Positions 1-38,791 of a DNA stretch of 63,255 nucleotides are shown here, one piece after another. This DNA comes from Chrysochromulina tobinii. Taxonomy: Eukaryota > Haptophyta > Prymnesiales > Chrysochromulinaceae. Within the stretch, counting starts at the first letter, position 1, and every line of letters begins with the position of its first letter. The translations under genes were made by a program, and so were the position numbers. The notes under the pieces were generated by a model, which was not told where the DNA came from, did no database searches, and saw only the letters and a list, made by a program, of their open reading frames with translations. The stretch covers positions 1 through 63,255 of the forward strand of contig JWZX01003271.1 in the NCBI GenBank assembly GCA_001275005.1, written 5' to 3'.

Positions 1-258
1 TGAACGTCTTGTTGCCGTGGTTGCGGTTGTTGTTCGTCAGGCGCCACTCGAGCTTCAACGCGGGGTAATCCGCCGGCATGATGTATGTGGTCGGGAAGAA
101 TTTGTACGGCTTGCCGCACGCGAGGAGCATCTTGTTGAGGTTGCGCGCGGTGCCCGCCTTGCGCACCAGCTCAAGCATGCCCGGGAAGTGGTTGATCTTC
201 TGCATGCGCCCCAGCTGGCCCACACGCTTGTTGGTCACCGCCCGGTCTGTCCAGCACA
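1..258 (-). CDS. Tubulin tyrosine ligase-like (TTLL) protein, partial and truncated
   Basis: Reading the minus strand from about base 258 down to base 1 gives an open frame that matches the start of the TTLL catalytic domain: a WTD motif, then KINHFPGM, then a RNLNKML segment, then KFFPTTYIMPAD. In TTL/TTLL enzymes (ATP-grasp ligases that add tyrosine, glutamate or glycine to tubulin tails) the same series occurs in the same order, WTD...NHFPGM...FFP.T..LP. The frame continues past base 1, so the C-terminal part lies outside the window. Upstream of the WTD motif no TTLL-like sequence is seen; instead the plus-strand retroelement frame begins. Either the gene was interrupted by the element or an intron starts here. 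The assignment to TTLL is strong; the subfamily and the substrate cannot be told. Confidence 0.72.
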
Positions 259-3200
259 ACGGTAGCGGCGACGGTAGCGCAGGTACTAACGACCGCGGCG
301 AGGACGGGGGCAGCGGCGACGAAGGCGAGGAGGGCGGATGCGGCGGCAGCAACGGCAACGGCCGCGCCGGTGGCGGCGCCAACATCACGTTCGGCTGCGC
401 CAGCGGCCGCGACGGCGGCGGCGACTACAGGTACGGAGGCGGCGGCGGCGACGGCAGTCGCAGCGCAACGGGTGCGGACGACGCGGGCGCAGGTGGGCGA
501 GGCACGAGCGCGAACAACGGCGAGAGCGACGGCGGCGGCGATGATCGCGGACGCGCCAAAACCCCGAGACGGACGGAGAAAAGGGTTGGCATCCTCCGGA
601 CACTACTCACATTGATGCAACTGGCGGCGGTAGAGATCGGCAACCCGAGGACGCACCGTACACCTCGACGCCCATCCCGCCCACAGGCAGACCAGCACAC
701 CGGGACGCCGGAACGGGCGGCCGCACGGGTCGCGGCGCCGATGGCGATATGGACGGAAGACGGCGGGTCCTACAGGGGAGACGACCGGGGCATCGGGGGC
801 GATGGCCAAGGCGGGCGGGGCGCCGACGACAGCGACCAACACGACGGCGACCGGGGACACGGAGGCGGGGGGTGGCTGGCCACGGTGATCGCACAGATGC
901 TACGCCATCGCCAAGAATCACGGCGTCGCACGAGTATCCTCAACATGGTCGCCCTTAACATTGCCCTATGGCACGGGGCAGCGACGTGGGCGGCGCGAGC
1001 GACGATGGCGGACGTGTACGCATGGGCCATTCGCGCCCCCGCGCATGTGCTGGTGCTCGGCACGGACCCAAGCGGCACCCGCGCGCTGGAACGCGCGGTC
1101 CAAGCGTGGAGGACAGCGACCGCGCAAGCATGCGACGGCGAAGGGGCGCTCATCATCACGGCGACGAGGATAGGGCTAAACGGACCATGGCAGGCAATCT
1201 TCGCGCCCAAGGACGCGGACGCCCACTCCCTCCTGCGCCTCGTGCGACAGGGCGTCACTCTCAGCCGGACGGAGGCGATCGCACAGCTAGCACCGGTCCG
1301 ACACGCTGTCGGCACGGCGCCCGCCATCACATTCATACCCCGCCTCGCTGCAGCGGCGCCATCCGGCGCAGGGCCATCGGGAAACGAACCGACCATGACG
1401 GCCAACGCAAAGGGGAAGCTGCCAGTGCGCCAATCGCGCGATCACCCGCGGGAAGGGCCGGCGGACCCGACGGCCGGACGACGGACAGCCTCTGAAGTTG
1501 CTTGGGCCACGCGGACTATGCAGGAAGAAGGGTACACCGTCACGGGGGGCATCCGACCCCAGGACGCGCGAGCCCTCGCCCGATACGTGTCGACAGGCAC
1601 CGACGACACCGAGCACGCCATGCGCTTCGACGAAGCGGCGATACGAGCGTACATCCAAGAAGTGGGGGGCGGACACGCGGACGATGCGTACACGACCGCA
1701 ATGCTGAAGCGGGCCTTCGCAGAACATGTCCGGCTGCGGCGCGGCGTCGAGTACGCCCACGGGCTCACCCGAGCGTACCTCACGGGTGGGGACACGACGG
1801 CAGACGAACCACAACACGTATGGCCGTTTGACGGCGTCCAATTACGCAGCGATCCGGGGGCGCGTCGACACCACTGCGAATGGGCAGAGGGCGCTACGGG
1901 CACGGTCATACGAAGCGCCGCGCGGGGTGACTGGACAGTGCGCCTCGACGGCACCGGCGCCAGTTACGAGGTGGACGTCCCGGGAACGGCGGTGCACCTA
2001 CTCACAGCGCGTGGATACTCAGCGGGGGACGTGGCCATCGCAGCGCGCGTGATCGGTACGGATCGAACCGCGACCGGGGCATCCGAGTCGACACACACAC
2101 ATAACGCCGTGCTACTCCTGCAGCGCACTCACAACAACGGGGGGAAGGACGTGGCCACATGGACAGCGTATCGCGGGGAAGACATGGCGACGGTGACGGT
2201 TTCGGAGGCCGACCTTCGGCGGGCACCATGGCAGGCGCGATCACGAGAACGCCCGGAAGACTCACCCAAGGGCGGGGAAGCGCTTGTGGCGATGGCGCAG
2301 CGGGCCTATGCAATCACCGGGGAGTGGGGAGAGGATGCGATCACACATATGCGGAGTGCCGCGAGGGGCAAAGGCCTCGCGATCAGCGACTCCGAGGCCA
2401 AGGCGGCGCTCGCGGAAGCGCGGCGCCGATGGCAAGGGGGCCACTCCTGCGCCCGCATGGTCACACTCAACCACGGGGGGATCGTCATGAGACTTCGAGA
2501 AGCAACAGCGGCGACGCCCGGTGTACGCAGAATGGCGACGGCGTCGGACAGCCAAGACACAGCCGCATTGTCCTGGGAGGCCGACGCCCGGCTCTGGAGG
2601 ACGATGCACACCCTTGCCGCCAACAATGACATCGTCATCCTCCAGGAAACACACCTCCCGGAACGGGATCCGGAAGGGCTCAGCTCGCGCGTCAAGCAAG
2701 CGCTCACATGCGGAGAATTCTCGGGGTGGAACGTAGCCGAGTCACCCGCACCCGAGGATGACACATTCGCGGGCATCTTGATGTGGTGGAACGCGGCGAC
2801 GGTGGAGCTGACGGGCATCGAGGTACTCGTGCCGGGACGGCTGCAGCGAGCACGGGTACGCATACGCGCGGACGGCACGGAGCTGTTGGTCGTGAACGCA
2901 TACGTCCCCACGAGACGTGGCAATCCGAACGCACGACAGGCCGCCGTGCTAGAATCCGTCCGGGCGCACATACAAAATGCAATTGACAAGGCCGACGAGG
3001 ACGGCGACGAGATCGCGATTGGAGGCGACCTGCAAGCACAGTCCACGGACGCACTCGACGCGCGCAAGGTCACCGGCAGCAACGAGTACAACGCATGGCT
3101 GGACGCGCTGTGCGCGGACAATTGCCTCGTGAGCGTCGGAGACGACGACCCCACATATAGCGCGGGAGCAGGAGGGCCGCAGACTACCATCGACCACTGG

Positions 3201-6200
3201 CTCGTCAGCTCGGGCCTGACCAGCAGGTCAACCGCGGAAGTGGGGGCCGGTGCGGACGGGCTTGCGGGGGACACGGCAGGCGCACACGGGCACCACTCAC
3301 TCCAGCTCAGCCTCGCGCTGCGCACCGCCGACGCTGAGGAGATGGAAGAAGAGTGGGAACGGCGGGAACCGCAGGTACCGCCTATGGACGAGGACGAATG
3401 GAGCGTCTTCCACGCGAAGGAAGAAGACACAGCGAGGGAGGCGGTGGACACAGCCGACAACGAGCACCGAAAGGAGGTCGAACACAAAGGAATCGGATCG
3501 TTCGGGCTGGCGGCGCGTAGACTGGGGGCCATCGAGGGGGCGCTCAAGGGCCTGGTGTCCGACATACAAGACCTGAGCAGCAAAACGGGTCCCCAACAGG
3601 GCACCAAAATCGGGCGCTTGCACGCGCGGATGCTCAGATGGCGCAGATGGCTACGCATCTGCGACGGCTCGAAGTACTTCCCCGACACGCACCCGATGTT
3701 CCGAACGGACAACTGCGCTGACGTCCTCGGGGACGCGCCAGAGCGCGACGAGTCGGTGCGCAGCGCCATACGAAGCTCGACTCCCGGGGTGCCGCGGCGG
3801 AATGCACTACGGGAGGCGTGCCGCCGCAGGTTCTTACATGCGCGAGACAAGTACGAGAGCGCGGTGACCGCCGGAGCGGTGGACACGGACAGGGTACGTA
3901 CTCGCCTCCTTGAGGACATCAGAAAAGCGGTCGAAGACGGGCGCGACCCGCGGTGGGAATGCTTCCGAGCGGTCGGTAGGGCGAAGGCGGCGCTCGCAGG
4001 CAAACGGACCGCGCCGAGACTGGATCAACCGGGCATGCGCACTATTAAACGCACGGGCGCCACCGTAGCGGAGACGGGCACGGGGCCGGTGCTGCACGCG
4101 ATCCACGACGAAAGCGTCGTCATGCACCAGGAGAGAGGGGCGAGCGCGGCGGGCGCCTTGATCGCGCAAGAGCGCATGGCGGCTGCAGGGCTGCCGGCAC
4201 CGTGGCCACACACGGTACACGAGCGGCGGGAAGACGCGGAAGTCGCAGCGGCAGATGAAGCGCGCGCGATGCACGAGGAGCGCTTGCGAGCAGCGTGGGC
4301 ACAATGGCACGCGGACACGGCGGTGGCGCCGGACGCGACATACGACCCGTGGGAAGCGATCCACACGGCATCATACCCGCCTCTCGTCGACGCCTTGAGG
4401 AAGGAGATGACGATACTCATCACAAACGACGGCATCGATCGCGGCCTCCAACGCTTCAGGGCACGACAGGGGGTCGGGGTGGGTGGATTCTCGGGCATAT
4501 GGGTGGCCCGTGCCAGCGACGCCACGCGACAACGCTACGCGACGGCACTAAGAGACATCGCCGCAGACGTACTCGTCGCCGCCGACGCGCTGGAACGTGC
4601 ACGCAACCCACAGGAAAGACGCGTCGCCGTGGAACTGATACGCGCGGCGGCGCCGCCAGGGTGGACACAGTGGATTATTATGCTCCTCACCAAACCCGGC
4701 AAAGCGCTGGACGTGCTCAGCAAGAGACGGGACATCTGCCTGCAGCCGCACTCGCTCAAGCTGTGCGCAAACGCGGTGGCATCCCACTACGTGGAGCTCC
4801 AGGAGCACGTCCAGCCGGAGGCGAACACTGGATTTCGGGAACGCGGAGCGGCAACGACCACGGCCCTTTGGCTAGGCCTAACCAAGGAAGAGGCGGCGTC
4901 GGAACGGAAGGGGTGGTACTGCGGCTTCGTCGACAAAGGGGGCTTCTTCCAGTCCTGCGTGCGACGAGCCCAGAGGGTCGTCGAAGCACGATTCGGCGTG
5001 CCAACTTCGGTCACCAACCTCATCATGGCTATCCATGAGGCACTCGTGGTCCGCTATGATTCGGGGATGGGAATCACCCACGGCACGGAATCCCACGTGG
5101 GCAACGGTCAGGGCGACTCTATCGCGCCCATGCGGAGTATGATACCACTCGCCATAGAGACGCGCGCGGTTGAGTGGCTCGTAGCGGGGTTTCAGTTCGC
5201 GGCCCCACGTGGTGTCCAACGCACTCGCACTCCACAAGGATGGTTCGCGGACGACGGCGCCTTCGTCGTGGACTCCCTCCGCGCCCTCCAACAGGCTTTC
5301 ACGGTTAGCTCGGCAATGGCGCGCGTCCTGGGATTCACCGTCGGAATCGACGTCGACGCTAAAGGCGTCCCGACGGGCGACAAAACCGGATGGATGGGCA
5401 GCGAGTGGCGCGACGGCCAGTGGGTGGAGGCGGGCGATGCAGTGACCATACGACTCATCGACGGCAGAGCGGTGCCGAGGGTGCAAGGTTACTACAAACA
5501 CCTCGGAATCCGGCAAACGCCCAAAGCCGACTGGGCGGTAGCCCGACAGGTGGTCACGCATCGGTGCGGGGGCATCGCAAGTGCGCTCTCACGCCTCGGC
5601 GTCCTCACGGCGGAGGAATTCATTGACACGGTGGACGCCGCAACCACCACGGTCGTCGCGTACTACGGCGCCGCATTCCCGATAGGCAGAAAGGCGTGCG
5701 AAACGATCGACGTGGCCAAACGACGCGGGCTCGCGCGCATGGGGCACGCAGGAGAACGCACATCCCGATGGCTCGCGCACGCGCCGCGACCGCTCGGACT
5801 CGGCATGGCCATCACGTGGGCACACGCGGCCGCGGCGCTCGTGGTGGAAGTGGACCGGGCCATCAACATGCCCGAGACGGCTCCGGCGCACGTGGCCGTC
5901 ACGAGCAGATTGGCCAAGGAGTTCTGGAGGTGGGGGTGGCGACCCTCTACGGGGGCACAAGTGCCGCTTGCATGGAACCCGACGTGGATCCACGACACGC
6001 TCACGGAGGAAGGCATCATTGAAGCGTGGCAGCTCTATCTGCAGACCGCCAAAGTGCGCACGAGCTCGAGTACCACCGGAAACGGATGCGCCGACGCACT
6101 CGCGCCTAACTACCGACTACCGGACGACCCCCTAGGCGCGGACGCTCCGATCTGGGAAAGAGAAGGGCGTACATACGGCAGGCGCCTGGCCAGACTTGGC

Positions 6201-9200
6201 GGCACCCTGCGCAGGCACTTTCTCGCCGACGACGGCGGATGGCGCAGCGAAAAGGAACTGGGCGAATATCTGGGCCGCGGAGGGCGCATCGTCGGGGGAC
6301 GCAGGATCGGAGCGAAACTTACGACGGCGGAGGCTCAAGAGTACCGCACCCTGCTGCAACAACTACACCCGGACGAGAACGAATGGGCATCGGATCAACG
6401 CCCGGGACCACGGGAGCGGCCAGCCGAAGTGCACGCCGTCGAGGTCCTCAGCGCGGGGGGCAATGAGTATCGCGGCACGGAGTATCTTCTCGAATACAAC
6501 GACGGCACCGTGCGATGGGAACGGCGCCCCAGGGCCATGGCACCGGGGCTGACAAGAAAGATGCGCGCGGCACGGGCACAGCACCTCGAGGAAGGGGAGC
6601 TCACCATTGCGCAACACATCGAGGGACGGCTCGGGGGCACACGCGGCGCACTGTGGCTCGCAACGAAAGCACCGCTATCGGTCGGAGCGCGCCACGTCCA
6701 GGACATCCTCGCCGAGGCGGCCAAGGAACTCGGGGAAGGATGGTTTCGACCCCCGATCGTCGCCGAGCGCACAGCGGCGCGCATGGGGCCTGGAACCGGC
6801 AACGCCCAAGGCGCGCGACTCGCAGCAACGGAGGCTCACGCGGCCGCGGCACGCGCGGACGGGGCGACGGCAGACGGGTCCGAGACGCCGGGCGCACGCG
6901 CCGCCCTCGCGGAAAAGGCAGAGGCCGCGTGGGCGTGGGCAGCAGTGATGGACGTTTACGCAACATCCCTTGAAGCGCCCGCAAACGAAAGGGATGCACG
7001 ACAACAATCCGTGGACAGGGCGTACGCGGAATGGATAGCGGCCTCGGCACGGGCGGCGACAGGGGCAACGGCGCAGGCGGTGATCGAATGGGCGCAGGCG
7101 CTCCCGGAACACGATATGGCGGCCGACACGAACGCCGAGGGCGCATACGCAGCGGCGGAGGCGGACGAGCGATCCCCGGCCAAAAGGTTTCGACCTAGCG
7201 CGCGGCCGGAATGCTTCATGGGATCAGTCGGGCCGGGGGGCGCGGATGGACGCAAACGAAGGCAGCCGTCCCTGGAGCTCTCCGAGGCACAACGGCAAGC
7301 CGCGGGCTCACTACCCCAGTGCATGCCCATACCTGAGGAGAACGACATGGAACAGGACCCGAGGGTGGCGTGGGACGGCACGTGGCGCCAGTGCGGGATG
7401 CACGTGGAACGGGTGGAACGCATGTGGAACATCGCACCGAGGCGGCTGGGATGGAAGCTCACCAGTGAGCAGCTAACGCAGATACAGCGCCAACACGACG
7501 CCGCCCTCGTACGCAAGGCCGCGACCCGCAGGACGCACCACACCAGCGACGCTCACCCAATCGCCGGGACACTGGCGGAAGAGACGCCGACTGCCGAGCA
7601 CGATTCGAGTGCACCCGCGTACGGCACGAACCATCGACAACGACAAATGGCGGAAGCCATGGCCGCAGAGGAGCGCGCGGACGACGCGGCGGACGCCGCG
7701 CTCGAGGACGAGTGGGGGATGACCGATTGGAGCGCGGCGGAGATTGAGGCCGCGGAGCGCGACGCCGCTGCCACAGGCTCGATGGACGACGACACGAGGG
7801 ATGGGTGGGACGCCATAGCGGCCATGGAGGCGTACGAAGACGCGGAGACCGCTGCAGAAGCGTATCTTCGCGAGGATACGGCGGCTCCCCACGGCCGCGA
7901 ACGGGCAGACGGCTTGACCGACGCGCAGCAACGGCACATCGCGACACAACGCGTCCTGGCCCTCGAACGCAAACAGAGACGCGAGGCGGAGGAGTCCCAA
8001 AGCAACGCCGACGCCCTCGCCGCCAAGACGGCGGAGGCGGAGCAGGAATGGCGGCACAGGAAAGCAGAGGCCCTGGAAGCACGACAAGCCGCGAATGCTC
8101 GCATGCTGGCCTCGGAGGGCGCACGCACGCTGAGCTGGGCAACGAACTATCAAGAGGCGTCCTCCAAGGACATGGAGCGTAACGCGGCGGCACGACGCGT
8201 TGATCTCGCACGAGCGGCGGAACAGACGGCCCGCGATGCGTGCGCCCACCTGACGGGAGAGACGACACGGCGCCTTCAAAAGGCGCGCGCAGAGCTCGCG
8301 CGCCTGAAAGGGACTGACGGTGACGAAGCGGGCATCACGGACGCGGAACGAGCCGCCCTCGAACAGGACGAAAGGGAGGACGAGGCGCTACGCGAGACCG
8401 CGCGGCAACAGGCCGCGGCACAAGTTGCAGCGGCGCAGGCCGACCGCGCGAAGCGCGCGAGCGTTGCGGAAACGGCGGACAGACTCAGAGCCGCGCGGGA
8501 AGCAACGACGGAAGCGCTCCACGCAATTAACGGGTCCGAGGCACACGCAAAAAGGCGCGAACGGCAGGAGGGGGAGCGGGCGGAGGAGGAAGCGCGGTAC
8601 GCGCACGTCGAGTACTGGGACACGCTCACGCCGGAGCAGCGAGCGGCAATCCTCGCGAGCCCGACGCTGCGCCTCTGCGTGCGACACCGGGAAATGGAGC
8701 AACGGGAGTCGATGCGCGCCACGGATAGCCGAATCGACATCAGCATGGAGCCCAAGGAGCGCCGCAACATGGACACGGCGCATACGAAACGCGCCGCGGC
8801 CATCGGGCTCGCCATCGAACGACGGTACGGAATAAGGTACGCGTACGCGGTGGACGGCAGCAAGGACGACGCGGAGGCGTGGGGGGAGCACGCGACCGGC
8901 GAACGAGCGGCGGCCTGGGGGGCATGGGACGGGATCACGGCATACGGTGGCGCGCTTCCTCCGGGCACGGGTAACCAGGAAGCCGAACTTTATGCGATTG
9001 AACGTGTCCTGGCACGGCACACGCGGGGCGATCGGATCCTCCTAATGTGCGACTGTCAAGCGGCGCTTGCGTTGATTGAGGCCGCATGGCGAAGCGGCAG
9101 GGCGGGCACGGGGAGCCCCGCGACCGGCAAAACGGGGGGCCTATTGGTCGAAGCGATCATACGGCACCGCCTGCGCATCACGAGCAGAGAAAGGGACGAC

Positions 9201-12200
9201 ACGCCCAGAGGGTGCGTCTGCTTCATGTGGGTCAAAGCTCATGGCGGCGGGGTGGTGCCGAACGCATACGCGGACGCGATCGCCAAGTCATGCCTCACCG
9301 CGGAGGTGGACTACGCCACCGTGGACGACCCATACCGCGCCTTGCCACGGGCGTGCCTCTATATGGCTCAGCCCGAGCCACGAGACGACACATGGGAAAT
9401 GGGGAACCGGCGGTTCTCATGCATCACCGCGGACCGATCCCTCCGCAACCTCATCATCGACGGCATCACGAGACAGGTCATCGCACAACTACCTCGGCAG
9501 TCGCACGCGAAGTGCGACGAGCGCGTAGTCGCGGCGGCGACGTGCACGGGGGGGCGACCTGCGGGAGCGACTACAGGCGCCGGACCGAAACATGGCATGA
9601 CGGAACCGACGGGGACCGGTCGCGCGATGCGACTGCGCTCCGACGACCTACGACAACGTCACGACGAATGCCCACTGTGCAAGGAGCAGGGGCCACATGA
9701 GGGGGTGCACGTCCTGAGGTGCGCCGGGATCCCTCCAGAACACAGAGACGCAGCCGTGACGCAAATGGTGGCCGCGCTCGCCGCGGCCGCGGACTCGCTA
9801 CCGTCGGGGAACCGGCGGGCACCCGCGGAGAACACGCTACAGGCGTGGCGAGAGGCGGCACATCGCGCCGGACAATACGGAGCAGTGGCGGCGCTCGGGC
9901 AGCCACCGACTGGTGAGGAGACCCGCGCACCTCAAAACGCACGCGAGTGGGCGAGATCTGGATGGCGACGAAAGGGCGATCTGTACGAACTCGACCTGCA
10001 CAGCGAGACGGAGAAGGCGGACTGGAGGATCGCGGTGTGGGGCGCCATAGCAGTTCGCAGCGCATACGCGTCCGCCGCCAAGGCGGCCAGCGCGGAACAC
10101 GCCACCGCAGAAGTGAAACAGGCGTGCGAAGAGGCCACACGGCGACTGGAGGACGGTCCCCTCGGTTCGGCGAGTCGCGCCGCGGGGGACGCGGCGGTGG
10201 ACGAACACACAGACGCGCCCCACATCACCCCCAGGACGGACGGGGGAGGCATCGGAGCAGTCCGCCTGCGCTTCACACAGCTCCAACCGCACCACCTCGC
10301 ACACACGCGTGACTGGACAGAGCGCCGCTCGTGGCTGCCCGCGGCGCGCGCAAAGGCCGGGACGACAGCCTGGTCCGCGCATGCACACAGGGGCTTCAGA
10401 TCGGAGGGTGGGGCAGCAGGACGGAAGGAGGAACAGGCGGTAGCCGTGGACGCTCAGGATGCAGTATACAAAATCGCGGCTCCAGCGGCGTGGCCGTGGC
10501 TGGTGGAGTACGAAATGGACGGATACGAAGCGACGCGACCGGACGGGACGGAGGGGGCGCGCACACTCACCACCCTCCGACTCGGACACGCGGAAGGCGC
10601 CAACACAGTGATCGTCAGCACGAGATACGTCCGGGCAAACGGCCAACGCTACCAGGACGGGGGAAACGCGATCACTATAGAGACAGAACTCATGGGGGAC
10701 GCAGACGGGAAAGGCATGCGAGCCATGTTCTGGGACATCGCCCTCGGAGGTCATGAAACGACGCACGGGGCACAGGCGACGGTACGGCGAGCCGCGGCTG
10801 CCGCCGCTTCCAGGTGCCTAGGGGACGCGGACGGCACGCAATGGCGCGCCCTCCGATGCGCGATGGGCGGGGAAATCCCGCCCCCCACAATTTGCGAACG
10901 CATGGAGGCGATACGGGCCCGAAAAGCGGCGGGCGACGCCGCGGCGACCGCGGCTGAGGCCCGCACGAGAGCTGCACTCAACGACGCCCAACACGAACAG
11001 GACCCCACCCCCGCACCGACACGTATCACCAATGGGGCGGAGCGACTGCGGAAGGCGGCGGCGGAGCTCGGGGTCCACGTCGACGCCCCCCGCCAGGCGC
11101 TGCGACGCGCCTACCTCCGGGAGGCTCTAGATGCACACCCAGACAAGGGGGGCAGCGACCTTGCCTTCCAGAAGCTGCGCGAGGCGTTTCAGGAACTGGA
11201 AGGCGCGACGGAGGAAGCGCGCCAGGGTGCCGCGCAGGAGATCCGAGACGGACACGACACGGCGGAGCGGACCCGACACGACGCGAGGCAGGGCACCGAA
11301 CGGGCGGAAGCGCGACTATCGGACGTGATTGCGAAGGCTCGGGCGGCCGCGGCCCAATGTGCGGAGGCCGAGTGGGTCCCGACATGGAAAGCCACGGCAC
11401 AACACCTCCGAGATGCCGGCGGGGCATTCATGCTACTATGGACGCGATACCAAGGATGCGTGATCCGGCATCTGAACGCGCTCGCACGCGAAGTACCTGG
11501 GGCGAATTACAGGACGCATGGAGAACGCCAAGCAGCGGCGGCCGTGGTACGTCGAGCCGAGCAACGCCACGCGAGAGAGTGCGCGAAACAACAAGCGGTG
11601 GACGAAATGCGACGGGCTGAACAACGAGTGCTACACGAGCGCAGAAAAGCGGCGGAGGCGGCGGCGGACTTACTCAGACGCCAGGGCGCGCTGGCGTACG
11701 CTGAGGCTGCGCGCCTGGATGGCGCCACCCTCACACAAGACTACCGCGTCAAACTCCCGTGGGCCATGTGGCCGAAGGAAGCGGAAAGCGAACGGTACGA
11801 ACTGTACGAGATCGCAGAGATCGACACCGAATGCACATACGTGGTGCTGGAGCGCACCGGCGCGAGCTATGCCGAGAGGCGGCGACCGATCCGCAAGGGA
11901 GCTCGACCTCACTGGAACCGCTTCACGGTCGACTGGGATTGCTTCACCGGCGTCCGACGATACGGAACAAATCAGCGGGGCGTCATCATCGTACACGAAG
12001 ACGCGACGGAAGGGACGTCGGCAGAGGATGAGGGCACAGACGAGGAGGAGCGCCAGCAACAAGGACTCGAGGCACGAAGAGCGGCGCACCGCGCGGCGCG
12101 CCTGATGGGGATAGCCCGCGCGACCGACCGCGACGCCGCGAAGCTGCTACATGAGGAGGAACAACTGGGGCGGGGACACACGGCAGCGGAGGACGCGTTA

Positions 12201-14486
12201 CGACGAGAGGAAGCGGAAGGAACGGACGACGTTCCATCGGACGACAGCGACGATCACCGACGAGACACGGCACCTGATGCCACGCCTCAAGAGACCGGGA
12301 CCGGGGGGACGCAACTCGCACGGCGCAGGGGTACGTGGAATGGGAAACACTGGGCCAAGGAGGCATGGACCGGACCCGTCGCGGCCATGGAGTACGCGGC
12401 GGCGTGGCGCGAGGACCCCCCCGAGCGCCCACCGCGATCGACGGCGGCGGACGCCGCGCAGCGGAAGGCGCACCAAAGGTCCCTCGAAGGGAACCGGGAG
12501 GGCAACCGAAGAGCGGCGACCACGGCGATACGCGAAACCGCGCGACGTAGCGGCGGACTGTGGGGCGCCGCCGCAGACGCGGAGGCCGTGGACGACCAGA
12601 GACATGCCATAGCGCATCTTGCACACGCCGCGCGACAGTGGCACGCACGGGAACAGCCGGGACAGCGGCGGCGAGGAGGGACAGCGGCGACGCAAGCAGT
12701 CGCGGCGGCGGCAGATGCCCTGCAACGGAAACGGCCCGCAGCGGATACAGTGGACGCGGCCGCTCGCAAGCGGGCCATGCTCGACACCGCCCACATCATA
12801 GCCGCCACGAGGGCTCACCTCGAGCTCCCCGGTGACAACAGCGAGGCGCGGGCTCGACAGATGCTCCGACGTGCCACGGGGGGCTCCTCCGCGCCCATGG
12901 GGGGCCGCGGACTACAGGGCGCGGAGGTGCTCATGGAGACCGTGCTCGCAAGCCTGCCGGAAGTATCGGAAGCGGACGGTGAACTGTACCGCGAAGCGCC
13001 ACAAGCCGCGGGGATACTTGGAATACCGGATAGCGAGGCCCACACGACGATCTCCGAAGACGCGACGGAGAGGAGCGCCGTACGACGGATATCACTCGAC
13101 GTCGACATCTGGGTCGGAAACTTGCACGCGCAGGGTCGCGCAGCGCAGCGACCGGAGGGCGCGATAGACAGAAGGGTGGACCGGACGACGGCGTGCGGCA
13201 ACCCGTTCCTCATCGCCCCGAACAACGAACGCGAACGGAACGCCGCATGCAGAGCATACGCGGAACTGATCCATGGTGACCCGGAGAGTCCCGATGTCCG
13301 GAAACTCGCCACAGAATACGGCCTACGCGTCGACCTGAAGTTCGCCACACCAGAGGCGAAGCAGGCGCGGGACAACGCGCTCCGCCAACTCGAACGGGAC
13401 GTGCTGACCCTGCACCGGGGGACATCCATCCGCCTCATGTGCCACTGCGCCCCCAAACGGTGCCACGCGCACGCCATCGCAAGGGAGATCCGGCGGCGCC
13501 TCCGGACACGCGGCGTGGACATACACGTGGACGACGGGGGTTGGGAAGGACCACCAGAGGAACGCATGGACGCAGACATGCACGCGGACAATGAGGAGGC
13601 CGGAGAGATGACGGTCGACGGAACCGACGTCACCGCGGCGCGCCAAACAGACCCGGGGACACCGAGCCATACCCCCACCGACACAACGCGCGCCCCGAGG
13701 GCGCTCCCGGGAGACTGGGTGAGCCGCCTGTTCGACAAACTACTCGCTCACAAATACAACGGGCGCAACCAAAGGGCATACGAGGAATTCATGGCACAGA
13801 TGGCGACGAAGGCAGCGGGGACGGCGGCGTCCTCGGCAGAGACGGCGACGGAGGTTGCGACTTCGCGGGCGGGGGCGGACGGGGAAAGAGCGCGGGCGGC
13901 AGAGGACAGAGGGGCGGGGGCGGCGAATCGGAGGAAAGGTCCGGAGGCGTCGGAGAGGAAGAGGGCGGCGGTGACTAAGGCGGCGGCGGAGAGGGAGCAG
14001 AGAGCGAGGGAGGTAGCGGAGAGGGGGAAGGGGTCGGTGGAGATGGCGAGGGGGGCGGCGGAGGAGACGGCGAAGGGAACGGAGGTGCCGAGAGCGGGGA
14101 CGACGACGACGACGACGACGGCGACAAGGGAAGCGACGACGGCGCAGGTGCTAGCGGAGGCAGAGACGACGGCGGCGGCGGACGAGTGGGCACGTCCGCG
14201 CGACACATTAGAACCAGACGACAGCCACGAGAACGGAACAGCCCAAGCAACACGGCCGAAGACCGCGCACGGCGACAGGGACGACAACGAACGGGCGCAC
14301 GGACACGACGGCACAACCAGGGGACGGGATGACGGAACGGAGGACACGAGGGCGGAGCAGCGAGCGGGGGGGGACGGCGACACGACAGGCGGCGTCAAGA
14401 TTCGCGCGCCACGCGTCCGGAACGAAGAATACCGGGCAGCGAAGCGCCGTCGCAACGACAAGTACCAGGGGGGCAAGGCGACGTGA
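78..14486 (+). CDS. Giant non-LTR retrotransposon polyprotein (endonuclease, reverse transcriptase, RNase H, J domain, DUF4326-like)
   Basis: One uninterrupted frame of 4,802 codons. The first ATG at 78 lies in DNA antisense to the TTLL gene, so the true start is probably after base 258. Domains in order: an exonuclease-endonuclease-phosphatase domain at about residues 830-1050 (ILQETH with Glu857, GGD at 982-984, IDH at 1038-1040; the usual GDFN box reads GGDLQ); a reverse transcriptase at about 1460-1800 (motif A Asp1619 in FVDKGGFF, motif B GNGQGDS, motif C FADD at 1723-1726); RNase H at about 2920-3075 with candidate catalytic Asp2926, Glu2970, Asp2992 and Asp3066; a C2HC finger near base 9,670; a J domain with HPD at 3687-3689; and a DUF4326-like domain at about 4343-4480 with CHC..KRCH. 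The EN-RT-RNase H order is that of LINE-type elements. Long Ala/Arg/Glu-rich spacers separate the domains. It is three to four times the usual ORF2 length. Confidence 0.85.
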   Translation: MMYVVGKNLYGLPHARSILLRLRAVPALRTSSSMPGKWLIFCMRPSWPTRLLVTARSVQHNGSGDGSAGTNDRGEDGGSGDEGEEGGCGGSNGNGRAGGGANITFGCASGRDGGGDYRYGGGGGDGSRSATGADDAGAGGRGTSANNGESDGGGDDRGRAKTPRRTEKRVGILRTLLTLMQLAAVEIGNPRTHRTPRRPSRPQADQHTGTPERAAARVAAPMAIWTEDGGSYRGDDRGIGGDGQGGRGADDSDQHDGDRGHGGGGWLATVIAQMLRHRQESRRRTSILNMVALNIALWHGAATWAARATMADVYAWAIRAPAHVLVLGTDPSGTRALERAVQAWRTATAQACDGEGALIITATRIGLNGPWQAIFAPKDADAHSLLRLVRQGVTLSRTEAIAQLAPVRHAVGTAPAITFIPRLAAAAPSGAGPSGNEPTMTANAKGKLPVRQSRDHPREGPADPTAGRRTASEVAWATRTMQEEGYTVTGGIRPQDARALARYVSTGTDDTEHAMRFDEAAIRAYIQEVGGGHADDAYTTAMLKRAFAEHVRLRRGVEYAHGLTRAYLTGGDTTADEPQHVWPFDGVQLRSDPGARRHHCEWAEGATGTVIRSAARGDWTVRLDGTGASYEVDVPGTAVHLLTARGYSAGDVAIAARVIGTDRTATGASESTHTHNAVLLLQRTHNNGGKDVATWTAYRGEDMATVTVSEADLRRAPWQARSRERPEDSPKGGEALVAMAQRAYAITGEWGEDAITHMRSAARGKGLAISDSEAKAALAEARRRWQGGHSCARMVTLNHGGIVMRLREATAATPGVRRMATASDSQDTAALSWEADARLWRTMHTLAANNDIVILQETHLPERDPEGLSSRVKQALTCGEFSGWNVAESPAPEDDTFAGILMWWNAATVELTGIEVLVPGRLQRARVRIRADGTELLVVNAYVPTRRGNPNARQAAVLESVRAHIQNAIDKADEDGDEIAIGGDLQAQSTDALDARKVTGSNEYNAWLDALCADNCLVSVGDDDPTYSAGAGGPQTTIDHWLVSSGLTSRSTAEVGAGADGLAGDTAGAHGHHSLQLSLALRTADAEEMEEEWERREPQVPPMDEDEWSVFHAKEEDTAREAVDTADNEHRKEVEHKGIGSFGLAARRLGAIEGALKGLVSDIQDLSSKTGPQQGTKIGRLHARMLRWRRWLRICDGSKYFPDTHPMFRTDNCADVLGDAPERDESVRSAIRSSTPGVPRRNALREACRRRFLHARDKYESAVTAGAVDTDRVRTRLLEDIRKAVEDGRDPRWECFRAVGRAKAALAGKRTAPRLDQPGMRTIKRTGATVAETGTGPVLHAIHDESVVMHQERGASAAGALIAQERMAAAGLPAPWPHTVHERREDAEVAAADEARAMHEERLRAAWAQWHADTAVAPDATYDPWEAIHTASYPPLVDALRKEMTILITNDGIDRGLQRFRARQGVGVGGFSGIWVARASDATRQRYATALRDIAADVLVAADALERARNPQERRVAVELIRAAAPPGWTQWIIMLLTKPGKALDVLSKRRDICLQPHSLKLCANAVASHYVELQEHVQPEANTGFRERGAATTTALWLGLTKEEAASERKGWYCGFVDKGGFFQSCVRRAQRVVEARFGVPTSVTNLIMAIHEALVVRYDSGMGITHGTESHVGNGQGDSIAPMRSMIPLAIETRAVEWLVAGFQFAAPRGVQRTRTPQGWFADDGAFVVDSLRALQQAFTVSSAMARVLGFTVGIDVDAKGVPTGDKTGWMGSEWRDGQWVEAGDAVTIRLIDGRAVPRVQGYYKHLGIRQTPKADWAVARQVVTHRCGGIASALSRLGVLTAEEFIDTVDAATTTVVAYYGAAFPIGRKACETIDVAKRRGLARMGHAGERTSRWLAHAPRPLGLGMAITWAHAAAALVVEVDRAINMPETAPAHVAVTSRLAKEFWRWGWRPSTGAQVPLAWNPTWIHDTLTEEGIIEAWQLYLQTAKVRTSSSTTGNGCADALAPNYRLPDDPLGADAPIWEREGRTYGRRLARLGGTLRRHFLADDGGWRSEKELGEYLGRGGRIVGGRRIGAKLTTAEAQEYRTLLQQLHPDENEWASDQRPGPRERPAEVHAVEVLSAGGNEYRGTEYLLEYNDGTVRWERRPRAMAPGLTRKMRAARAQHLEEGELTIAQHIEGRLGGTRGALWLATKAPLSVGARHVQDILAEAAKELGEGWFRPPIVAERTAARMGPGTGNAQGARLAATEAHAAAARADGATADGSETPGARAALAEKAEAAWAWAAVMDVYATSLEAPANERDARQQSVDRAYAEWIAASARAATGATAQAVIEWAQALPEHDMAADTNAEGAYAAAEADERSPAKRFRPSARPECFMGSVGPGGADGRKRRQPSLELSEAQRQAAGSLPQCMPIPEENDMEQDPRVAWDGTWRQCGMHVERVERMWNIAPRRLGWKLTSEQLTQIQRQHDAALVRKAATRRTHHTSDAHPIAGTLAEETPTAEHDSSAPAYGTNHRQRQMAEAMAAEERADDAADAALEDEWGMTDWSAAEIEAAERDAAATGSMDDDTRDGWDAIAAMEAYEDAETAAEAYLREDTAAPHGRERADGLTDAQQRHIATQRVLALERKQRREAEESQSNADALAAKTAEAEQEWRHRKAEALEARQAANARMLASEGARTLSWATNYQEASSKDMERNAAARRVDLARAAEQTARDACAHLTGETTRRLQKARAELARLKGTDGDEAGITDAERAALEQDEREDEALRETARQQAAAQVAAAQADRAKRASVAETADRLRAAREATTEALHAINGSEAHAKRRERQEGERAEEEARYAHVEYWDTLTPEQRAAILASPTLRLCVRHREMEQRESMRATDSRIDISMEPKERRNMDTAHTKRAAAIGLAIERRYGIRYAYAVDGSKDDAEAWGEHATGERAAAWGAWDGITAYGGALPPGTGNQEAELYAIERVLARHTRGDRILLMCDCQAALALIEAAWRSGRAGTGSPATGKTGGLLVEAIIRHRLRITSRERDDTPRGCVCFMWVKAHGGGVVPNAYADAIAKSCLTAEVDYATVDDPYRALPRACLYMAQPEPRDDTWEMGNRRFSCITADRSLRNLIIDGITRQVIAQLPRQSHAKCDERVVAAATCTGGRPAGATTGAGPKHGMTEPTGTGRAMRLRSDDLRQRHDECPLCKEQGPHEGVHVLRCAGIPPEHRDAAVTQMVAALAAAADSLPSGNRRAPAENTLQAWREAAHRAGQYGAVAALGQPPTGEETRAPQNAREWARSGWRRKGDLYELDLHSETEKADWRIAVWGAIAVRSAYASAAKAASAEHATAEVKQACEEATRRLEDGPLGSASRAAGDAAVDEHTDAPHITPRTDGGGIGAVRLRFTQLQPHHLAHTRDWTERRSWLPAARAKAGTTAWSAHAHRGFRSEGGAAGRKEEQAVAVDAQDAVYKIAAPAAWPWLVEYEMDGYEATRPDGTEGARTLTTLRLGHAEGANTVIVSTRYVRANGQRYQDGGNAITIETELMGDADGKGMRAMFWDIALGGHETTHGAQATVRRAAAAAASRCLGDADGTQWRALRCAMGGEIPPPTICERMEAIRARKAAGDAAATAAEARTRAALNDAQHEQDPTPAPTRITNGAERLRKAAAELGVHVDAPRQALRRAYLREALDAHPDKGGSDLAFQKLREAFQELEGATEEARQGAAQEIRDGHDTAERTRHDARQGTERAEARLSDVIAKARAAAAQCAEAEWVPTWKATAQHLRDAGGAFMLLWTRYQGCVIRHLNALAREVPGANYRTHGERQAAAAVVRRAEQRHARECAKQQAVDEMRRAEQRVLHERRKAAEAAADLLRRQGALAYAEAARLDGATLTQDYRVKLPWAMWPKEAESERYELYEIAEIDTECTYVVLERTGASYAERRRPIRKGARPHWNRFTVDWDCFTGVRRYGTNQRGVIIVHEDATEGTSAEDEGTDEEERQQQGLEARRAAHRAARLMGIARATDRDAAKLLHEEEQLGRGHTAAEDALRREEAEGTDDVPSDDSDDHRRDTAPDATPQETGTGGTQLARRRGTWNGKHWAKEAWTGPVAAMEYAAAWREDPPERPPRSTAADAAQRKAHQRSLEGNREGNRRAATTAIRETARRSGGLWGAAADAEAVDDQRHAIAHLAHAARQWHAREQPGQRRRGGTAATQAVAAAADALQRKRPAADTVDAAARKRAMLDTAHIIAATRAHLELPGDNSEARARQMLRRATGGSSAPMGGRGLQGAEVLMETVLASLPEVSEADGELYREAPQAAGILGIPDSEAHTTISEDATERSAVRRISLDVDIWVGNLHAQGRAAQRPEGAIDRRVDRTTACGNPFLIAPNNERERNAACRAYAELIHGDPESPDVRKLATEYGLRVDLKFATPEAKQARDNALRQLERDVLTLHRGTSIRLMCHCAPKRCHAHAIAREIRRRLRTRGVDIHVDDGGWEGPPEERMDADMHADNEEAGEMTVDGTDVTAARQTDPGTPSHTPTDTTRAPRALPGDWVSRLFDKLLAHKYNGRNQRAYEEFMAQMATKAAGTAASSAETATEVATSRAGADGERARAAEDRGAGAANRRKGPEASERKRAAVTKAAAEREQRAREVAERGKGSVEMARGAAEETAKGTEVPRAGTTTTTTTATREATTAQVLAEAETTAAADEWARPRDTLEPDDSHENGTAQATRPKTAHGDRDDNERAHGHDGTTRGRDDGTEDTRAEQRAGGDGDTTGGVKIRAPRVRNEEYRAAKRRRNDKYQGGKAT

Positions 14487-15240
14487 GCCACAGGAGGACT
14501 GTTAGCGCCCGCACAACCAGGGCAATCCCAGGGCCCCCCCTACGAGTATAACGGCAGCCAAGATCGGCCTCTGGCTCCCTAAGCACGAGAGCAAAGACAA
14601 ATACGAGGACCAGGCAACATGTCCTACCAGGGGGGTAACGGCGATCGCGCAACCAGGCTAATCCGTGCGGGCTTCCTACGAGCGCACGAGGGGCGCCGAC
14701 CGGCCTCGCATCTTCAAGAACACGACAAGCGGTACGACGAGTACGAGGACGAGACGACGTGTACTACCGGGGGACTGATGGCGTTCGCGCAGTCAGGCTG
14801 ATCCCAGCGTGCTCCCCTACGAAGGCGACGGCGACACGGAACGGCCTCGAGCTCCACACGCACAAGCGGAACAACAAGCACGGGGACGAGACGACGTGTA
14901 CTACCGGGGGACTGATGGCGTTCGCGCAGTCAGGCTGATCCCAACGTGCTCCTTACCGCGGGGGCCGACGACTCGATACTACCGGGGGACTGGTAGCGCT
15001 AGCGCAGCCAGGCTGATCCCAGCGTGCTCCACTTACCACTACGAGACAAACGCGACGCCGATCCGCCCTCGGTTTTAAAAACAAAACAAACGCTCGCAGG
15101 TTTTTTCCTCCCCACTTCACTAAAAGCATATCAAGGCAAGGACGGGCCGCGCCTAGCAATAGGTTCCCAGAGCCTAAATGTAACCGGGTAACCGGGTTCG
15201 CAGTCTACTTAATTAGAATTTAATATTGAATTTCGGATCG
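259..15240 (+). mobile_element. LINE-like non-LTR retroelement (approximate limits)
   Basis: The left limit is set where TTLL similarity ends on the opposite strand (about 258). The right limit is set after the 3' repeats and an A/T-rich stretch (about 15,205-15,235), before the next gene. No long terminal repeats were seen and no clear target-site duplication could be identified by eye, as expected if the 5' end is variable. The element is intact in the sense that the RT and RNase H catalytic residues are present and the 14.4 kb frame has no stop, which suggests recent activity. The exact ends are uncertain by tens to hundreds of bases. Confidence 0.55.
14461..15030 (+). repeat. Degenerate tandem repeats in the 3' region of the retroelement
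   Basis: Five related blocks start near 14,461, 14,621, 14,761, 14,897 and 14,977. Each has a TACTACCGGGGG-like head followed by a GGCGTTCGCGCAGTCAGGCT-like core and a GTGCTCC-type end. The third and fourth blocks are nearly identical over about 60 bases including upstream flank; the others are diverged. Spacing is 80-160 bases. Repeated 3' tails in non-LTR elements can serve as reverse transcriptase recognition sites; that role here is inference. Confidence 0.75.
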
Positions 15241-15373
15241 TTACATCCACTGGCAGGGGCACATCCTCTCTAGGTGCCGGTTGGCGCTGGGGAGGATCGA
15301 CTGCAAAAGCCAACATTTGCACTCCGCATCATCGTCGGATCCATACCAGTGGTGACGACCCACAACGGGCCGT
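15031..15373. other. Element tail and intergenic DNA
   Basis: Contains an A-rich run (about 15,075-15,090), a TAACCGGG doublet near 15,180 and an A/T-rich stretch near 15,205-15,235 that may be the end of the retroelement. No convincing gene was seen. Confidence 0.4.
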
Positions 15374-15919
15374 CTATAGCACCCAAACGTCGTTCCCCTT
15401 CTTCTGCTTGAACCCGCATGCAAGCAGCGCCTCCTGCGCAATCGCCAGGTCGACCGCCGCATAGGGCGCGCCGTTGACCACAAATACGGCCGCCTCTTTC
15501 AGACCGGGGAGCATGATTTTCACCGAGCCCTGCACCGGCAGGGTGTCGGTGAAGCCAAACACCCAGGGTAACATGTACACGATTGCTGTGGTAATCACGG
15601 ATGGATTGCCCAATACGTCGCCCTTGAGGTATGCGCGCGCTTTGGCACGGGCGATGGGTGCCATCATAGCTACTTCGTTATTGTACCCATACATTTCCTC
15701 GAGCTGGCCGTTGAAGAGCGATGCGCGTACCTTGACACCGTGACGGTCTTCAGCAGCTGCAAGTGCCATCGGCAACGTCTTGGCTGCCTTTGCTCCGCTC
15801 TTTGGCAGAGGCGCATTTGCCATCGGGGGCGCAAAGGGACCTAGCGGCCCAATGACGCCCAGGAAAATGGCTGCTATCGCCATGGCCAAATAGTCCCGGG
15901 TCCGGAGGGGCTCGGCCAT
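15374..15919 (-). CDS. Small protein with N-terminal membrane segment, unknown function
   Basis: A 181-residue frame starting at the ATG at 15,919 (MAEPLRTRDY). The frame stays open far upstream through the antisense of the PRMT7 gene, but that extension has no sensible composition. Residues about 10-30 are hydrophobic (LAMAIAAIFLGVIGPLG), consistent with a signal peptide or anchor. A second hydrophobic stretch (TTAIVYMLPWVFGF) lies mid-protein. The C-terminal half (EAAVFVVNGAPYAAVDLAI...) looks like a folded domain. I do not recognise the family. It shares a 150-base divergent promoter region with the PRMT7 gene at 16,070; a plastid or endomembrane location is a guess from the N-terminus. 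Confidence 0.6.
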   Translation of the reverse strand: MAEPLRTRDYLAMAIAAIFLGVIGPLGPFAPPMANAPLPKSGAKAAKTLPMALAAAEDRHGVKVRASLFNGQLEEMYGYNNEVAMMAPIARAKARAYLKGDVLGNPSVITTAIVYMLPWVFGFTDTLPVQGSVKIMLPGLKEAAVFVVNGAPYAAVDLAIAQEALLACGFKQKKGNDVWVL

Positions 15920-16069
15920 TGTGAACCGAAGAGATCGGAGCTCGTCTCGCGACTCCGATTGTTCACACGCGTGTTGAAATCGAAACTCGCACTCAGCGCG
16001 CTGGCCGGGATGAAATTTGTTCTGTGTCATTGGGGCTTTTCGGCGAGTTGCGGAATTCGCGCTTGCAAC

Positions 16070-17121
16070 ATGAGCGACGTCGATCTTGTGGACTGCCAGC
16101 TCGCCGACCTCCTTCCCGACGCGACGATCGACGACTGCCTCGTGATCGCGCCTAACGACGAGGAGGATGCGGTACCGAGTGTCGCTGCCGCCGAGCGCGT
16201 ACTTGAGGCGCGTGGCGTCAACATGGACGGCAGCGGTGGCCTGGCGTGGGCGGAGGCAGCTGAGGGCGCCGTGGTCGCTCGCAAGTACCGCATGATGTCG
16301 GCGATGCTCAAGGACGGGCCACGCAATGCGGCATATGCCGCGGCCATCGAGGAGGCGGTGCGTACGCACCTCGCGCGGCATGGCGCGCCGCCGCTCGTTC
16401 TTGACATTGGCACCGGCTTTGGCCTGCTTGGCATGGTCGCAGCACGCGCGGGCGCGCTCGTCGTCGGCTGCGAGATGAACACGGCGGTTGCCGCAGTGTG
16501 CGAGCGCGTGGTCGAGCGCAATGGACTGGCTGCACGCATGCAGGTCCTCCCTCGGCGCTCCGACGAGCTCACGCCGCACGTTCTGGACGGGCGGCGATTT
16601 GACCTCATCGTGACCGAGACGCTCGATAGCGAGCTGCTGCGCGAGGGGATCGTGCCGACGCTCCGGCATGCACAGGCGGTGCTGCTCGCGCCGGGTGGCC
16701 GCATCGTGCCCGCGCGCGCTCACCTGTACTGCGAGCTCGTCGCCCTCGACGCCACCACAGCGCCGTGCCTTTCCACACTCAACTCGGAGGCCGTGCTCGA
16801 ATGGGAGACGCTCGCTCCCACCACGGCGTCCGAGCTGGCAGACGCGGTGGATGCGGCCGGCGTGACGGTCTATGCCGCGCCGCTGGCCGCCTTGGACGCC
16901 TTTTGCAACCCTGACGAGATGCACACGCCCCTTCGGGTGCAGGCTGATGCGTTGCGGGCGAGCGGCGCGCTGCGTTCGCTCGCGGGACCAGTCAAACTGC
17001 ACTCGATCGCGCTGGCACAAGCCGAGACGCTGCCGGAGCGGGTGGAGGTGCGGCGTGAGGTGCAGGTGCATGCCGCAGGCCGGGCGGAGGGTTTGCTCGT
17101 CTGGTGGAGCCTCGAGTGTAG

Positions 17122-38000: not shown

Positions 38001-38370
38001 AGTGCAGCGGCGTCATCTTCTCGTTGTCCTGGGTTTCAACCGCCGCGCCAGCCGCAGCGAGCGCCTTGATCGCATCTGCGTGGCCATCTGCCGCAGCGAT
38101 GTGCAGCGGCGTCGCCTTCAGCGGCGTCCTCTTCACGTCGGTCCGAGCTTCGACCGACGCGCCCGCCGCAACGAGCGCCTTGATCGCATCTGCGTGGCCT
38201 TGTGCCGCAGCGATGTGCAGCGGCGTCCTCTTCTCGTCGTCCTGGGCTTCGACCGACGCGCCTGCCGCCACGAGCTCATCGATTTTCGTGACATCATTAG
38301 CACGCGCAGCTCGATGCATGTCAGTGGAGGCCTGCGAGAATGCAAGTACAAGTACAAATGCCGCCATCAT
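35001..38370 (-). CDS. Large ankyrin-repeat protein with signal peptide and SAM-like C-terminus (single-base frame break)
   Basis: ATG at 38,370 gives MMAAFVLVLAFSQAS, a likely signal peptide, then about 31 ankyrin repeats of 33 residues. The consensus is TPLHSAAGNGHADAIKALV followed by AAGASVEAQDDEKR. The 99-base units are strikingly uniform. At 36,601-36,604 the plus strand reads GCCATTTTCCCGC where sister repeats read GCCATTTCCCGC, and the extra T shifts frame between repeats 17 and 18. Both sides are otherwise open and coding. After the last repeat comes a SAM-like domain (WLRAHELSETQHLPLLQSLG...LTMDELFSDI) and a Lys-rich tail. One repeat near 38,110 has a small TPLKA insertion. The break is either an assembly indel or a recent disabling mutation. 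Binding partners are unknown. Confidence 0.8.
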
Positions 38371-38791
38371 CACTATGGAGTCGAACTCGACAAATCCACA
38401 CGGGGCTGCTGTGTGAACCAGTGAACGTACCGGTAACACGACAGACCACAGACGCGACAACCTGTGTGAATGTTAACACGCGTCGGGATCCTCTTAACAT
38501 TCAGGGCGGGTCTGGTTCCCAATAAGTTCCCCATCGGCTCGCGGGGGTCCTAATAGTTAAAAAGAGACGCTCGGGGTCAAACTTACCTATAACCCTAACC
38601 TCCCCGCTAACATCAAACATGTATCAGTTTCTTTCCGTTAAACATCCCTTACTCGCCTGTAGCATGTGCGACTTTTTCGACGGGAACGAAAGAGCCCGTC
38701 CGCGGTCTTTTCTCTTTATACATTTACTACCCCGGGACCACTTGCCTCCCTAAGATGACCATTGAAGATGACCAAATAAATGCGCGCCAGG
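38371..38791. other. Intergenic region
   Basis: Between the ankyrin gene start and the mTERF gene end. An A/T-richer stretch with one TAACCCTAACC near 38,588 was seen, but no gene. Confidence 0.35.

Follow-up and report, generated by a model that had tools for sequence, protein, structure and literature searches.

The open frame and its catalytic core

We analysed a stretch of 63,255 nucleotides from the haptophyte Chrysochromulina tobinii (contig JWZX01003271.1, C2112 in our searches; hereafter the window). An original prediction, made from the letters alone, had placed at its start a giant single-frame retroelement that combines endonuclease (EN), reverse transcriptase (RT) and RNase H with a J domain and a DUF4326-like domain. 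All of these domains were found and the core of that claim holds: the element is almost certainly a non-LTR (long terminal repeat) retrotransposon of the long interspersed nuclear element (LINE) type, whose giant protein carries EN, RT, RNase H, a CCHC finger, a J domain, a coiled coil, a small beta domain and DUF4326. The features of the locus, in window coordinates, are as follows.

2-301, minus: exon of a host tubulin-tyrosine-ligase (TTL) gene, Pfam match at about 38-205, antisense beneath the start of the giant frame
78-1475, plus: 5' portion of the open frame, for which other copies show no clear homology; first codons antisense to the TTL exon
1476-14486, plus: element open reading frame (ORF) backed by other copies through homology and dN/dS (ratio of nonsynonymous to synonymous substitution), residues about 467-4802 plus stop
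2619-3245, plus: APE-type endonuclease (Exo_endo_phos); QETH and IDH present, GGDLQA in place of GDLNA
4608-5957, plus: reverse transcriptase; motif A VDKGGFF at 4929, FADD at 5244-5255
8847-9290, plus: RNase H, D-E-D-D complete
9669-9722, plus: CPLC...H...C finger after RNase H, by motif
11067-11201, plus: J domain (DnaJ), HPDKGG at 11136-11153; by Pfam, profile and model
11211-11741, plus: long helical, coiled-coil-like stretch after the J domain (AlphaFold2 (AF2) model, helices 93-269)
11742-11996, plus: small beta domain, weakly Tudor-like (AF2 model, strands 270-354)
13158-13481, plus: DUF4326, C-x5-R (CHCAPKR) from 13440
14486-15033, plus: repeat of the 3' untranslated region (UTR), five imperfect 57-nt copies at 78-140 nt spacing
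15142-15196, plus: conserved 3' terminus with the end TAACCGGGTAACCGGG, the same in 4/4 genome matches

The plus-strand frame runs from an ATG at 78 to a stop at 14486 and comprises 4,802 codons with no internal stop; the remaining five frames over the same interval contain 47-119 stops each. A by-product of base composition was ruled out as the source of this length, since 20 order-2 Markov windows of the same composition contained no stop-free frame longer than 643 codons. The predicted single frame of about 4,800 codons is therefore open as claimed, but it does not give the length or the start of the element, as its N-terminus is partly the antisense of a TTL exon. This exon (Pfam TTL, E 1.1e-6) occupies minus-strand positions 2-301, so that the frame opens with codons antisense to host DNA. 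Homology with the copies on C519, C1022 and C1120 begins at residues 467-476 (window about 1476), the 5' portion ahead of it has no Pfam match up to E 0.1, and at the other end a public protein, P0006, is homologous to the window protein as far as its last residue. Judged from these alignments, the start codon at 78 is wrong for the element, whose protein is at least about 4,330 codons long. Two of the copies, C1120 (L061, from 2681) and C1022 (L062, from 79), have in common an N-terminal block that is not seen in the window copy. By eye it resembles an OTU-type cysteine protease (NCLAFSI in both, DHFSALLP in C1120 only); Pfam lists no match of that kind up to E 0.1, and the C1120 block gave no PDB match up to E 1.

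Profile hidden Markov models had been proposed as a check on the domains, and for EN and RNase H the Pfam cut-offs were missed in the window but passed in a related copy each. Exo_endo_phos scores 24.2 bits in the window protein, just under the cut-off of 24.5, and 25.1 bits in the C1120 copy; RNase_H scores 23 bits in the window, under its cut-off of 25.8, and 26.5 bits in C519. RVT_1 gives no hit on the whole protein; with the RT segment as query it reaches 14.1 bits, against a cut-off of 29.6. When 7 related RTs are combined into a profile, however, the solved R2 protein is found at E 7.9e-13 and ORF2p of LINE-1 at about 1e-9; on these profile scores the RT is too divergent for Pfam, yet of R2/L1 type.

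The diagnostic residues named in the original prediction are all in place: the FADD of the RT (together with the motif-A Asp), the four RNase H acidic residues, CPLC...H...C, HPD and CHCAPKRCH. D-E-D-D is kept in 7/7 RNase H sequences and the finger in 6/7, the exception being C1120, whose contig ends earlier (C1022 and P0002, near-identical, are counted separately in both). A Chromo domain appeared as a single weak Pfam match (E 0.78) in 1/7 members. The endonuclease is of the APE type expected of a LINE, with one marked change. Whereas QETH is kept in 5/5 sequences of the window element's family (family 1), all five read GGD[LI]QA, with Gln replacing the conserved Asn (C1022 and P0002 again near-identical); Asn stands at that position in 5/5 other EN sequences, C2132 and P0008 among them being one copy. 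By this substitution the family-1 endonuclease departs from the usual APE type, and its nicking activity is putative. In addition, the window and P0002 read HGHH where SDH is expected (window sites 3021-3038 for the Gln change and 3285-3299 for HGHH).

Other copies, selection and the 3' terminus

An RT query against the 53-Mb assembly returned 28 matches, four of which are close copies (84-100%, no stops): the window itself, C1022, C1120 and C519. Two further matches are short fragments at 73-92%, and all others are at 34% or less. The C1022 and C1120 contigs end before the J domain. The alignment of C519 to the window spans 3,733 columns at 62% within a single frame, RNase H and J domain included; the DUF4326 of C519 is broken, the N-terminal half lying in an inverted segment of ~575 bp that is followed by a stop and then by the C-terminal half, where Gln replaces the Arg of C-x5-R. 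This inversion (C519:11163-11738, L052) is either a rearrangement or an assembly error. Public protein sets added P0002 (60%), P0003 (64%, from residue 1960 on), P0004 (49%) and P0005 (28-32%), then P0006 and P0007. P0002 and C1022 share 99.8% identity across 1,451 residues; P0005 has EN-RT-RNase H and no listed Pfam domain.

For counts of distinct copies we used sequences at most 82% identical, took P0002/C1022 as one and left out the scrambled copy on C1751. A J domain with HPD is present in 6/6 distinct copies that reach the region (window, C519, P0002/C1022, P0003, P0004, P0007), and DUF4326 in 5/6 (intact in window, P0002, P0003 and P0006, broken in C519, not found in P0004). The search for copies with the same C-terminal order, another of the proposed checks, was thus successful: J followed by DUF4326 recurs intact in P0002 and P0003, and with a broken DUF4326 in C519. 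P0003 starts with a U-box/ARM protein and P0002, by eye, with an ARM-like one, each joined in frame at the 5' side; their sequences suggest copies truncated at the 5' end and read as one with host genes.

We next compared the window with C519 over 3,873 aligned codons (residues 473-4170); this range stops short of DUF4326 because C519 is rearranged there. dN/dS is lowest in the RT (0.06), followed by RNase H (0.09), EN (0.13) and the EN-RT interval (0.17). Higher values were obtained for the RNase H-J and RT-RNase H intervals (0.24-0.26), the J domain (0.29), the part from J to residue 4170 (0.30) and the N-terminal residues 473-840 (0.34). The ratios are rough, with pS near 0.6 throughout the regions and synonymous sites near saturation. 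Residues 473-4170, the J domain included and DUF4326 excluded, have evolved as coding sequence under purifying selection.

The element extends past its stop codon to an end at 15196 that is common to the window, C1751, C519 and C1534. Window 15100-15196 recurs at 97% in C1751, at 93% in C519 (last 55 bases) and at 86% in C1534 (last 56 bases). The last bases before the shared end are two copies of TAACCGGG, or of TAACGCGG in C1534, and the flanks beyond it differ between copies, so that all four matches, window included, have the constant 3' end with differing flanks that is characteristic of LINEs. Since nothing beyond the last 56 bases matches the element at the DNA level within 1.1 kb of C1534, this match is a stub or a relative with a common end. 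No LTR was detected: apart from the 3' UTR array, window 1-17000 holds no direct or inverted repeat of at least 40 nt (seed 12). Nor was a target-site duplication detected, as no common 9-mer or longer links window 1-1200 to 15181-15330, the 5' end of this copy not being placed. A hairpin seen by eye at the 3' end (CCTA-GCAA-TAGG) found no support: three folds have z-scores of -1.2 to -1.5 and differ between copies. C1751:31936-33649 (L059) is a scrambled remnant of inverted and direct pieces whose 3' end is the one 97% identical to that of the window.

The C-terminal arm

Beyond the catalytic core lies a C-terminal arm of about 1,600 residues with the J domain, a long coiled coil, the small beta domain and DUF4326. 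For J and DUF4326 the proposed profile check was passed outright, both scoring above the Pfam curated cut-offs. DnaJ scores 31.8 bits (cut-off 27.8) at residues 3664-3708, and a J profile matches DNAJA1 at E 1.5e-6. The J helices are modelled by AF2 with a confidence score (pLDDT) of about 90; in Foldseek the model matches J domains with a probability of up to 1.00, at E 0.26 or worse, and it has the predicted J fold with HPD between helices II and III. Few columns are invariant in a five-sequence J alignment, HPD being among them. The small beta domain matches the SMN/PHF20 Tudor weakly (Foldseek probability 0.2-0.5). In PDB fold lists neither the model of the J arm nor that of DUF4326 had a match at E 0.001. 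A J domain elsewhere in the genome, in a 2,951-codon frame on C2182, was considered as a further element and rejected for the 7 kb covered there, which are without similarity to these RT proteins (E 1e-3).

DUF4326 (PF14216) scores 34.9 bits (cut-off 25) at residues 4361-4468, and CHCAPKRCH supplies the C.C...CH motif of the family. C-x5-R is present in 4/4 family-1 copies with an intact domain and in 7/7 sequences of a second family described below (two of them one copy). The best solved fold for the modelled domain is the C-terminal domain of E. coli RapZ, which it resembles at 11-14% identity in the structural alignment; the DUF4326 profile does not list RapZ at E up to 10. The RapZ C-terminal domain binds RNA, as has been shown, and has a pocket on RNA phosphate (C247...R253) that is also proposed to bind glucosamine-6-phosphate (GlcN6P). 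Unlike RapZ, the element has no visible N-terminal kinase-like domain. The model suggests that DUF4326, whose activity is unproven, may hold RNA.

The family is described from phages and giant viruses in sections of two papers (PMC9503650, PMC7824862), the former of which predicts ADP-ribose chemistry for it. Together with the RapZ-like model, this published prediction lends support to the earlier suggestion of a nucleotide- or nucleic-acid-related module. Structural matches in BFVD reach E 0.001 or better in 3/226 cases, and most of the named high-ranking ones are DUF4326 proteins of phages and giant viruses, generally 100-320 residues long. These viral proteins are like the element's domain in Pfam family, in structural matches and, in four IMG/VR matches, in CHCAPKRCH; they differ in size and content, these four motif-bearing IMG/VR frames having 103-202 codons and no RT.

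A second lineage and the possible role of the arm

The genome holds 12 DUF4326 matches at E up to 0.01 (11 above the cut-off), several in very long frames. In C1185 (a 5,097-codon frame) and C2132 (4,479 codons, the contig ending first) the order is EN-DUF4326-RT, and C2201 has the same DUF4326-RT order. C1185 and C2132 are 61-69% identical to each other over the two longest blocks and 22-27% identical to the window RT; their EN, at 15.8 and 19.3 bits, misses the Pfam cut-off, and their DUF4326 scores 25.5 and 23.3 bits (cut-off 25). Among public relatives of this family 2, P0008 is 99.97% identical to C2132 and represents the same copy. DUF4326 follows EN in P0008, P0009, P0010 and P0011, with an RT then seen in the first three; P0012 has EN and RT with no DUF4326 found, giving 4/5 relatives with the domain. 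A small RT tree puts P0004 and P0005 beside family 1, and P0012 beside family 2. A search of IMG/VR for RT relatives yielded 3 stretches that fit the pattern, none of them confirmed.

In a DUF4326 tree the two families are not grouped (weak support, 43-71 at the relevant nodes), and family 1 groups with a stand-alone gene on C1464. To judge from these trees, two separate gains of DUF4326 are the simpler reading, not a proven one. The C1464 gene (L009), a 336-codon DUF4326 frame 42-45% identical to the element's domain, is a possible donor candidate; by eye it adjoins a riboflavin-kinase-like frame. L010/L016, L013/L014 and L012 are more DUF4326 matches, in frames of 192-2,207 codons, and no further Pfam domain scores above cut-off in L012, L013, L014 or L016.

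LINEs with an APE endonuclease and RNase H include those of the I/Jockey/Tx1-L1 type. The window element has in common with them the EN-RT-RNase H-CCHC order, an R2/L1-type RT, a fixed 3' end and seemingly 5'-truncated copies. It differs in its arm of J domain, coiled coil and DUF4326, in a single ORF of about 4,330 codons, in the Asn to Gln change of the EN and in the DKGGFF of RT motif A. LINE proteins are usually compact; here is one of more than 4,300 residues, mostly under demonstrated selection, with an Hsp70 co-chaperone domain and with a domain whose other descriptions come from phages and giant viruses. Terminons and Burro giant retroelements, treated in a review (PMC6431247) the main text of which does not use the word 'DnaJ', are likewise very large RT elements, but Penelope-like or LTR ones. 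According to a further report (PMC9289625), an orchid Ty3/Gypsy element has acquired an extra domain too; it differs in being an LTR element and in carrying an m6A RNA demethylase rather than J or DUF4326. Searches of an open-licence library turned up no LINE that combines a J domain with DUF4326.

The element would move by target-primed reverse transcription (TPRT) that starts at its fixed 3' end and uses EN, RT and RNase H. Within the arm, element RNA would be held by the coiled coil together with the RapZ-like pocket of DUF4326, and host Hsp70, recruited by the J domain, would help the giant ribonucleoprotein (RNP) to fold, assemble or open. L1 ORF1p combines a coiled coil with RNA binding, and the arm may do in cis what the ORF1 protein does in other LINEs. 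As a mechanism for the arm alone, this cis-acting stand-in for ORF1 protein is offered tentatively; as an overall explanation, LINE identity combined with a chaperone and RNA-holding arm in place of ORF1 is the best we have, and we are evenly divided on it.

That J and DUF4326 come from neighbouring host genes, fused by chance or in assembly, is extremely improbable, even though the N-terminus of the window copy runs into antisense host DNA and P0002 and P0003 are fused 5' to host-like sequence. The same C-terminal order at about 50-65% identity in the window, P0002, P0003 and C519, and coding-type selection that reaches through the J domain, argue against it; recurrence in distinct copies rules out a chance fusion of adjoining genes.

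It is also rather unlikely that J has no special role in mobility, serving only the folding of a protein of more than 4,300 residues, with DUF4326 a tolerated passenger. The fairly fast evolution of J, its few invariant columns beside HPD and the broken DUF4326 of C519 speak for such an account, but the presence of DUF4326 elsewhere in the protein in a second LINE lineage (P0012 apart) is unexpected for a mere passenger. Alternatively, DUF4326 could act enzymatically on ADP-ribose or NAD-derived nucleotides and so weaken a defence signal of the host, J again being for folding only. This, too, we consider unlikely. Such a role is predicted for phage and giant-virus versions in a section of PMC7824862, and the conservation of C-x5-R, the viral proteins at the top of the BFVD matches and a protein-tyrosine phosphatase found by the DUF4326 profile, though only at E 1.4, point in the same direction. 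On the other side, the best solved fold for the model is an RNA-binding domain, and Pfam lists no NADAR, Macro or SLOG partner in the scanned stretches (P0002 lying outside the scan).

A wider proposal can be made with more hesitation still: that one LINE lineage built a chaperone-equipped RNP arm to replace ORF1 and that a second, distant lineage of the same genome took up the DUF4326 fold independently, at another position. DUF4326 would then be a recurrent retroelement module with a cis-acting role. The window element offers a testable case of a retrotransposon with its own chaperone recruiter, and two distant retroelement lineages are available in which RNA holding by DUF4326 can be tested.

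Elsewhere in the window, positions 35296-38275 consist of about 30 tandem 99-bp units, and a minus-strand frame at 36142-38460, which overlaps this array, encodes an ankyrin-repeat protein.
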